DNA from: an uncultured Pseudomonadota bacterium
GTDB taxonomy: Bacteria; Myxococcota_A; Bradymonadia; Bradymonadales; Bradymonadaceae
Reading direction: 5' to 3'
Assembly (NCBI GenBank): GCA_950059285.1
Contig: CATLTV010000039.1
Location: 1-33,771 of the forward strand
DNA length: 33,771 nucleotides
The translations under genes were made by a program, and so were the position numbers. Below are positions 1,422-3,557 of the stretch, piece by piece (position 1 is the first letter of the stretch; every line of letters begins with the position of its first letter). The notes beneath the pieces were generated by a model. It was not told where the DNA came from and made no database searches. It was given only the letters and a program-made list of their open reading frames with translations.

Positions 1422-3557
1422 ATGTCTTACGTGGTCTTAGCACGAAAGTGGCGTCCCAGGTTTTTTGAAGAAGTTGTCGGCCAGTCCCATGTCGCACGCA
1501 CCCTCAAAAACTCGATTGAACAGGATCGTGTCGCGCACTCCTACCTCTTTACAGGGGCTCGTGGTGTGGGAAAAACCTCCACAGCGCGTATTCTTGCCAA
1601 GGCTCTGAACTGCGAAAAAGGACCAACAACCACGCCATGTTATGAGTGTACATCTTGTCTTGAGATCTCGCAGGGACAGAGCGTGGATGTGTTTGAGATC
1701 GATGGTGCGTCCAACCGTGGTATCAATGAGATCCGCGAACTTCGTGAGGGCGCGCGTTATGCCCCCTCCAAGAGCCGCTTCAAGATCTACATCATTGATG
1801 AGGTTCACATGCTCACCACCGAGGCGTTCAACGCGTTGCTCAAGACGCTTGAAGAGCCTCCTCCCCATGTGAAGTTCATCTTCGCCACCACTGAACCCCA
1901 GAAGATCCCTGTCACTATTCTCTCACGTTGTCAGCGCTTTGACTTCAAACGCATTAGCCAGCATGACATCGTGGAGCACCTGCTCCAGATCTGCCCCAAT
2001 GAAGGGATTGAAGCCGAGGAAGGCGCGCTGCAATTGATCGCCAGGCAGGCATCAGGCGGTATGCGCGATGCCCTCTCCTTGCTCGATCAGGTCATTAGCT
2101 TTGCAGGAAACCATATCACCGAGGAACAGGTCACACAGATCCTTGGCGTGGCCAACCGCACGCACCTCTTTGAGCTGAGCAGGTCCATTGTGAAAGGCGA
2201 TGCTCAGCAGGCGCTCCTTACGCTCGATGAAGTGCACCGATATGGCTATGATTTACAACAGTTTTCCAGCGAAATGGTGAACCACATGCGCGACCTCATG
2301 GTCGTCAAGGTTGTTCAAAACCCAGAGCGTGTCACGACCATGACGCAGAGCGAAATCGATGTGGTCCTGCCCACACTCAAGCAGGTCACCACCGATCTCC
2401 TCCACCGCTATTTCTCGGTGATGATCGAGGGAGCGCAGGAGATGAGCCGCTCCCCCTATCCCAAGCTGATCTTCGAGATGACGCTTGTGCGCATGTGTCA
2501 GCTTGAGCCTCTCGTGGGCCTTGATCTGCTCATTGATAAGCTCCACGCGCTTGAAGGCTCGCTTGATGACGTCCCCCTGGAACCCATGGTGGACTCAAAA
2601 AAAAAAATTGAATCACGACCAGTAGTTGAGCCTGCGACGCCTGCACCAAGCAACCCCACCCCACCTCCAGTACAGGCGTCGCCAACACCAGCGCCCTCCC
2701 CCGAACCGAAAAAAGAGACGCCTTCACACGTCTTTACAGCCGATGATCCCAGCGAACTTAACAACACCCCGCTGGATGATGCCATCTCTGCTGCACCAAG
2801 CCCCACCACCACCACACAAGCGACGCCTCAGGAACAACCTGACGAGCCAGCACCTGCCACGCCAGAACCCATTGAGCACACCGACGAAGACGAGTCCAAC
2901 CCCGACTTCGAGCAGCTTGATGAAGAGCTTGAGCGACTCGCCATGGAGGCGGAAGAAGAGGATATGCTCGGGCTTGACAGTGAGGAGCATGAAAATACAC
3001 ATGATGAATCAATGCGTTATGAGGTATTCTCACTCACCGACACAGAACGCAACGCTGTCACACAGGCCACCGCACTTGCTCCTGATGAGGAGAGCGACGA
3101 CGAAGACGATGCACAAATTCCACTCCCTGAACTTGATATCGCAAAGGATGGACGTCAGGACTCGTGGAAGAAGATCGTGGACTATATTCGACTCACACAC
3201 GCACCTCTGGCAGCCACGCTTGAGCATGCCTATATCGAGGAGTTGACCGAGCAACATATCAACATGACCTTTGCTCAGCGTTACTCCCCCTTTGTGCATG
3301 ATGACAAGCGACTCTCCATCCTGAAAGAATACCTTCATCGGGTGCTTGGTGATGACTTTAATGTCAATATCGGGACACGCTTTGATGACAAACCCCTGCC
3401 TGGCTTTGAAACGCTCGCACAGCTTCGAGACATTGAACTCAGGCAACGTCGCGATACGCTCGCAGATGACACGGAAAATCACCCCGTCATCAAGGAAGCG
3501 CTGGAGCTCTTCTCTCCTTCAGCATCCCGCATCATGGTCGCGCTCTACGAAGATTAA
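1422..3557 (+). CDS. dnaX: DNA polymerase III subunit gamma/tau
   Basis: DnaX is the ATPase of the clamp loader and, as tau, couples polymerase cores to the DnaB helicase. The 711 residues begin with the family signature MSYVVLARKWRP. The Walker A motif GARGVGKT is at residues 45-52, a zinc module has Cys64, Cys73, Cys76 and Cys79, Walker B is the IIDEVHM segment near 125, and an arginine-finger region reads ILSRCQRFDF. Domains I-III end near residue 370. From about 395 to 580 the protein is Pro/Thr/Glu-rich and probably disordered, and a final folded part (about 580-711) matches the tau-specific C-terminus. Codons 393-395 lie in an 11-A run (2597-2607), and slippage there would end translation almost at once (separate entry), giving a roughly 396-residue gamma. 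The usual downstream partners ybaB and recR are absent here. The preceding ATG context is AAGGTAAGTTAAAAC. Confidence 0.97.
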   Translation: MSYVVLARKWRPRFFEEVVGQSHVARTLKNSIEQDRVAHSYLFTGARGVGKTSTARILAKALNCEKGPTTTPCYECTSCLEISQGQSVDVFEIDGASNRGINEIRELREGARYAPSKSRFKIYIIDEVHMLTTEAFNALLKTLEEPPPHVKFIFATTEPQKIPVTILSRCQRFDFKRISQHDIVEHLLQICPNEGIEAEEGALQLIARQASGGMRDALSLLDQVISFAGNHITEEQVTQILGVANRTHLFELSRSIVKGDAQQALLTLDEVHRYGYDLQQFSSEMVNHMRDLMVVKVVQNPERVTTMTQSEIDVVLPTLKQVTTDLLHRYFSVMIEGAQEMSRSPYPKLIFEMTLVRMCQLEPLVGLDLLIDKLHALEGSLDDVPLEPMVDSKKKIESRPVVEPATPAPSNPTPPPVQASPTPAPSPEPKKETPSHVFTADDPSELNNTPLDDAISAAPSPTTTTQATPQEQPDEPAPATPEPIEHTDEDESNPDFEQLDEELERLAMEAEEEDMLGLDSEEHENTHDESMRYEVFSLTDTERNAVTQATALAPDEESDDEDDAQIPLPELDIAKDGRQDSWKKIVDYIRLTHAPLAATLEHAYIEELTEQHINMTFAQRYSPFVHDDKRLSILKEYLHRVLGDDFNVNIGTRFDDKPLPGFETLAQLRDIELRQRRDTLADDTENHPVIKEALELFSPSASRIMVALYED
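2597..2611 (+). promoter_or_regulatory. dnaX slippage site: A11 tract followed by -1 frame TGA
   Basis: Eleven consecutive A residues (2597-2607) are read in frame 0 as Lys-Lys-Lys plus the first base of Ile. In the -1 frame the next codons are AAT and then TGA (2609-2611). In the other alternative frame a TAG follows at 2623-2625. Either ribosomal -1 slippage or RNA polymerase slippage on the A tract would therefore yield a truncated protein of about 396-400 residues containing domains I-III. This parallels gamma formation from dnaX in E. coli (ribosomal frameshift) and Thermus (transcriptional slippage on an A run). A perfect 10-bp inverted repeat (2634-2643/2673-2682) lies 26 bases downstream and might stimulate it. 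Confidence 0.75.
2634..2682 (+). promoter_or_regulatory. inverted repeat downstream of the dnaX slip site
   Basis: GCGACGCCTG (2634-2643) and CAGGCGTCGC (2673-2682) form a perfect 10-bp stem with a 29-nt loop, inside coding sequence. It starts 26 bases after the A tract, farther than the usual 5-9 bases for a -1 frameshift stimulator, so a functional role is uncertain. Confidence 0.35.

Follow-up and report, generated by a model that had tools for sequence, protein, structure and literature searches.

A pure A11 tract in dnaX of an uncultured Bradymonadaceae bacterium is predicted to yield tau and a gamma-like protein by transcriptional slippage

Background

Three kinds of dnaX gene bear on the locus described here. 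In Thermus thermophilus the gene carries a run of nine A residues with stops in both other frames, and is subject to transcriptional slippage (Larsen et al. 2000, as cited in PMC5009743 and PMC1088944). In Escherichia coli the slip site is the heptamer A_AAA_AAG, which is flanked by a Shine-Dalgarno-like stimulator on its upstream side and by a hairpin on its downstream side (PMC3711429). In Chlorobium, Chloroherpeton and others, identified with GeneTack, dnaX is split over two open reading frames with a poly-A stretch, and tau is made by recoding (PMC3711429). Genes with a single frame offer no extra coding sequence to compare, and recoding genome scans therefore miss them (PMC1088944). The need for gamma in cells, and its purpose, have long been argued, and the possibility that the default product of the gene might be swapped has been stated (both in PMC5009743).

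The host of the sequence analyzed here belongs to the Bradymonadales, which are introduced in PMC11509652 as predatory bacteria of the class Bradymonadia, phylum Myxococcota. A literature search combining dnaX, gamma, frameshift and Myxococc- gave no relevant paper. Slippage in dnaX has known precedents (Thermus a direct one, E. coli a functional parallel), and we found no earlier report for this lineage.

Results and discussion

The A11 tract and its predicted products

The window (the whole stretch of 33,771 nucleotides that was analyzed) is contig 39 of a draft genome of 441 contigs. On its forward strand, at positions 1422 to 3557, it carries dnaX, which encodes the tau subunit of DNA polymerase III in frame 0 (711 residues; assigned by TIGR02397, Pfam and NF011526). 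The TIGR02397 match scores 486 bits against a cut-off of 250, and three Pfam models exceed their cut-offs: PF13177 (DNA_pol3_delta2, residues 21-178), PF22608 (DNAX_ATPase_lid, 183-229) and PF12169 (DNA_pol3_gamma3, 232-365). These matches delimit domains I-III (ATPase, lid, and domain III to about residue 365; positions 1422 to 2516), which are common to tau and the predicted gamma. A linker rich in Pro, Ala, Glu and Asp, recognized from the translation (2612 to 3130), belongs to tau only, as does the conserved C-terminal region (residues 571-711; 3132 to 3554). The Pfam search of DnaX gave no match past residue 365. That the full-length product has the tau C-terminal region is indicated by alignment of residues 571-711 with the C-termini of three relatives (26-32% identity over about 130 residues, E values 1e-13 to 5e-23) and by NF011526, which aligns to residues 1-704 with 622 bits, short of the 670 that this model sets as its cut-off.

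An uninterrupted run of 11 A's occupies positions 2597 to 2607 on the forward strand, spanning codons 392-396 (S392 K393 K394 K395 I396) from the last base of the serine codon to the first of the isoleucine codon (TCA AAA AAA AAA ATT GAA). Frame 0 stays open past it to codon 711, and both non-zero frames close soon after it. The -1 frame, entered with one extra A in the mRNA or by a ribosomal -1 shift, reads AAT (2606 to 2608) and then TGA (2609 to 2611, forward strand), ending a 396-residue product. With one A fewer or two more, five codons are read beyond the lysines up to TAG (2621 to 2623, forward strand), for a product of 400-401 residues. We simulated transcripts of altered length: A12 gives 396 residues (44.7 kDa, ending SKKKN), A10 gives 400 residues (45.2 kDa, ending SKKKLNHDQ), A9 gives 395 and A13 gives 401, whereas A11 and A14 give tau (711 and 712 residues, 80 kDa). 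Any length change that is not a multiple of three thus ends the protein after domain III at 395-401 residues and about 45 kDa (44.6-45.3 kDa for A9, A10, A12 and A13); domains I-III are retained in every short form, the linker and C-terminal region in none. An earlier note on this DNA had placed an A11 tract in dnaX with AAT TGA adjoining it in the -1 frame, which we confirm exactly, and a stop of the remaining frame at TAG 2623, which is also there. Its expectation of truncation at about 396-400 residues, after domain III, agrees with the simulated lengths and with the Pfam end of domain III at residue 365; its mass of roughly 43 kDa for the short product was too low, the simulated transcripts giving nearer 45 kDa. 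Given a draft of 441 contigs, the exact tract length of 11 could be off in some strains; frame 0 is intact.

We consider it highly probable that A11 is a programmed slip site, at which slippage of RNA polymerase would give both tau and a gamma-like short protein. On this model the polymerase would stutter on the tract and produce a mixture of mRNAs with 11 ± n A's. Those with 11 + 3n A's would be translated into full-length tau, and all others would run into TGA or TAG and yield a gamma-like clamp-loader subunit of 395-401 residues, with domains I-III present and the linker and C-terminal region absent. From the sequence we infer that RNA polymerase rather than the ribosome probably does most of the slipping and that gamma would accumulate in the host; by analogy with E. 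coli and Thermus, the short product would be expected to work as gamma in the clamp loader. Part of the short product may also come from ribosomal -1 slippage on A_AAA_AAA.

The locus resembles T. thermophilus dnaX in having a pure A tract, tau in frame 0, close stops in both other frames and a short product predicted to retain the shared N-terminal part. It differs from Thermus in tract length (A11 here, A9 there), in belonging to the Myxococcota (Bradymonadales), in being predicted here from sequence, and in that about half of the host family lacks the tract. With the -1 frameshift of E. coli it shares the gene, the place in the protein and a short product that ends one codon into the -1 frame; unlike in E. 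coli, a stimulator and hairpin are not common to the tracts here, and both shifted frames are closed.

Rarity of the tract

Within the coding sequences of the window A11 is by far the longest homopolymer, the next longest having six bases; the only other run of at least nine is a T9 at positions 47 to 55, outside the genes counted and ahead of the contig's first gene. AAA makes up 39% of the lysine codons of the window, so that three lysines all encoded by AAA have a probability of about 0.06, and A11 one of about 0.01 given the peptide. In a pattern search of both strands, each of three relatives' complete genomes (5-8 Mb) showed only three to five places with at least ten consecutive A's, dnaX being among them every time; the per-genome chance of such a match in a given 180-nt zone is 4e-5 to 9e-5. 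Several of the other places, in the host and the three complete relatives, fall outside clear genes or close to where a contig stops. The host (G000) has two further A10 runs that lie, in sense orientation, within long open frames, one of 1000 repeat-rich codons (L152; contig 3, position 39767) and one of 398 codons with a C-terminus that by eye is SAP-like (L154; contig 165, position 1723); these are possible further slip sites.

Relatives in the host family

Of the dnaX genes of the host family that reach far enough to be usable, 8 of 17 carry A9-A11 at the equivalent place, the window and seven other members: A11 in the window, A10 in G013, G002 and G001, and A9 in G010, G011, G012 and G007. 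Their next stops, given as -1/+1 frame in nucleotides after the run, are 1/15, 13/18, 16/9, 3/8, 7/3 (three times) and 1/27; the -1 stops thus lie at 1-16 nt, the +1 stops at 3-27 nt, and both frames are closed within 27 nt. The carrier genes have 48-67% GC and most of the linkers are GC-rich. The run starts in codon phase 0, 1 or 2 with differing flanking residues, and tau is in frame in every carrier of the family, which indicates that the recurring element is the run and not the peptide.

About half of the family has no run, including G006, the sister of G007 in one genus, which reads CCC AAA AAT ATA at this place; the tract is therefore not indispensable across the clade. On the DnaX tree run presence changes six times, at least five of these by well-supported branches, and we read the patchy distribution as several probable gains or losses. 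The earlier note had named relatives lacking the run as evidence against its prediction: this applies in part, as about half of the family has no run, whereas the 8 of 17 genes above keep it with quick stops in both frames.

The short open frame of G008 (L011) was considered as a frameshifted dnaX and rejected, because it is the end of a contig. Many draft contigs stop shortly behind domain III of dnaX (L011, L167-L169, L181, L186, L195, L199, L203, L204, L209 and L214), as if the low-complexity linker had broken those assemblies.

Position and stop statistics across dnaX genes

We assembled 174 dnaX genes: those of the host family, of a second family and of the remaining class and phylum, and, from a wide range of phyla, 79 named loci. 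Around the end of domain III we defined a zone of 60 codons, 10 on its upstream side and 50 on its downstream side. This zone makes up 10% of the sequence (30.9 kb) and holds 24 of the 25 runs of at least nine A's, with one in the remaining 281 kb (binomial P about 2e-23, kinship ignored). Twenty-two run-bearing genes have tau in frame 0. In 16 of them stops close both shifted frames within 20 nt, against a background of 9% of positions in these genes' linkers; in 20 they do so within 30 nt, against 14%. A +1-frame stop lies within 20 nt in 17 of the 22 (null 27%; P about 1e-5 after near-copies were thinned), and a -1-frame stop in 21 of the 22. Sixty dnaX genes from the phylum's other classes served as a negative control, and runs of seven or more A's are absent from all of them; beyond the host family and the second family the run was not found in the remaining class and phylum samples. 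Codon use, the genome-wide run counts, the position of the tract and the stop distances led us to reject chance as the origin of A11.

Ten runs came from the wide sample, in Desulfobacteraceae, Gemmata, Schlesneria and other Planctomycetota, Verrucomicrobia, Bacteroidetes and Ignavibacteria (by record name); these loci were picked by short peptide patterns, one of them covering SKKKI, and 10 of 79 is thus not a true frequency of carriers. One Desulfobacterales gene (L043) has A10 at codon 524 of dnaX, far behind domain III, and there the shifted frames reach stops within 7 and 15 nt of the run.

Apparently swapped frames in a second family

Six of seven dnaX genes in family f4, which belongs to the same class, carry A10-A11. 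Tau is in frame 0 in four of its species (G033, G034, G035 and G038). In two others of the same genus, G036 (L142) and G037 (L147), frame 0 closes at once after an A10 tract (EKKN and EKKNLTPTPSM before the stop) and the -1 frame is open. The -1 frame of G037 runs for 266 codons, and its product is 36-37% identical to the C-terminal parts of tau in sister species (E values down to 3e-36); the contig of G036 ends before the tau C-terminus would be visible. G032 (L151) reads A7 TAA, with a tau tail of 318 codons in the -1 frame (E values down to 1.5e-26). In G036, G037 and G032 these frames leave slipping at the tract as the only route to the long product, and among our data this argues most strongly that tracts at this place do slip. 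An assembly error of one base in the homopolymer is conceivable, but would have had to occur twice, in G036 and in G037.

The two-frame dnaX genes of other bacteria share with our locus the poly-A stretch at the border of gamma and tau, and their layout is seen in these class relatives (with A7 in G032); the window differs from them in having tau in frame 0, and both layouts occur within one genus of the class. It appears likely, with less confidence than we place in the slip site itself, that small changes in the tract or at its edge switched the frame-0 product between tau and gamma within one genus, and that poly-A slippage is a recurrent, easily gained or lost route to gamma in the class, with a patchy occurrence in Planctomycetota, Verrucomicrobiota, Bacteroidota and Desulfobacterota. 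The newest of these results is that the default product seems to have been swapped between species of one genus.

Alternative explanations

Gamma could instead be made as in E. coli, by ribosomal -1 frameshifting on A_AAA_AAA with the adjacent -1 TGA and from a uniform mRNA, and this we regard as unlikely. The run contains the heptamer, -1 stops follow nearly all tracts closely, one relative (L010) has a strong hairpin directly behind its tract (z -4.1), and a 10-bp hairpin lies 25 nt behind the run in the window (z -2.56), although this is far downstream relative to known sites. A ribosomal -1 shift needs only the -1 stop, yet the +1 frame, never used by such shifting, is about equally enriched in stops and as closely closed, which favors slipping by RNA polymerase. 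The run also exceeds what a heptamer needs, and the next base varies among C, T and G instead of conforming to A_AAA_AAG as in E. coli; that heptamer is absent from the window, where A11 is followed by TTG. Across the tracts of 25 genes we found no consistent downstream hairpin or Shine-Dalgarno-like element. In the window the best upstream duplex of Shine-Dalgarno type reaches -4.9 kcal/mol and ends about 3 nt before the run, and the first 60 nt downstream have a structure z of +0.7; neither has the character of the E. coli elements. A11 is moreover at least as long as the A9 of Thermus, which suffices there (PMC1088944), and this too favors the polymerase. Stops in both shifted frames, tract length and the lack of a shared stimulator together lead us to favor transcriptional slippage over ribosomal frameshifting.

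It is considerably less probable still that the run is neutral and yields no separate product, being either a lysine stretch that arose by chance or a hot spot of mutation. Its patchiness in the family, with six changes on the tree, would fit such an origin, as would the statement in PMC6260861 that unprogrammed slippage is common; the position and two-frame stop statistics, the rarity of runs of at least ten A's in the same genomes, and a sister genus in which tau requires slipping all argue against it. Least probable of all, to the point of being hardly credible, is phase variation at the DNA level, in which replication would change the tract length and cells would switch between a tau-plus and a gamma-only state. 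Relatives do have tracts of 9, 10 and 11, and the frame-0 product does vary between species of one genus, but tau is in frame 0 in nearly all relatives at any tract length, because flanking codons compensate, and tau is essential in E. coli. Slippage by RNA polymerase of the Thermus kind, from which the earlier note had predicted gamma, thus gains support from tract recurrence, from stops in two frames and from the frame swap in f4, and remains a prediction from sequence.

Species with and without the tract, side by side, and a sister family with swapped frames make the gamma question testable; Bradymonas and Persicimonas are cultured and have complete genomes, and a Bradymonas transcriptome has been published (PMC7460792). 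Testing for position and two stops also detects slip genes with a single frame.

A different dnaX site in another family

In another family of the phylum (f27), nine sampled dnaX genes (L189, L190, L192, L194, L199, L201, L203, L212 and L215) have their frame-0 stop after 399-408 codons, in most cases preceded by GAY CCG GAG GGC GAG AGG and zero to two further codons. Seven loci extend far enough for the -1 frame to be followed, and in these it is open for 153-342 codons. Its products are 33-58% identical to one another between species, and a comparison with tau C-termini of other families detected weak or no similarity; from their position we infer that they are tau tails. The site has no homopolymer, and in two loci no -1-frame start codon lies within 90 nt of the stop. 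This is likely, from the sequences, a programmed -1 shift of a different, unfamiliar type, in which GGAGGG is possibly an internal Shine-Dalgarno sequence. Of the 18 AGG codons in the nine genes, 9 stand at this site.
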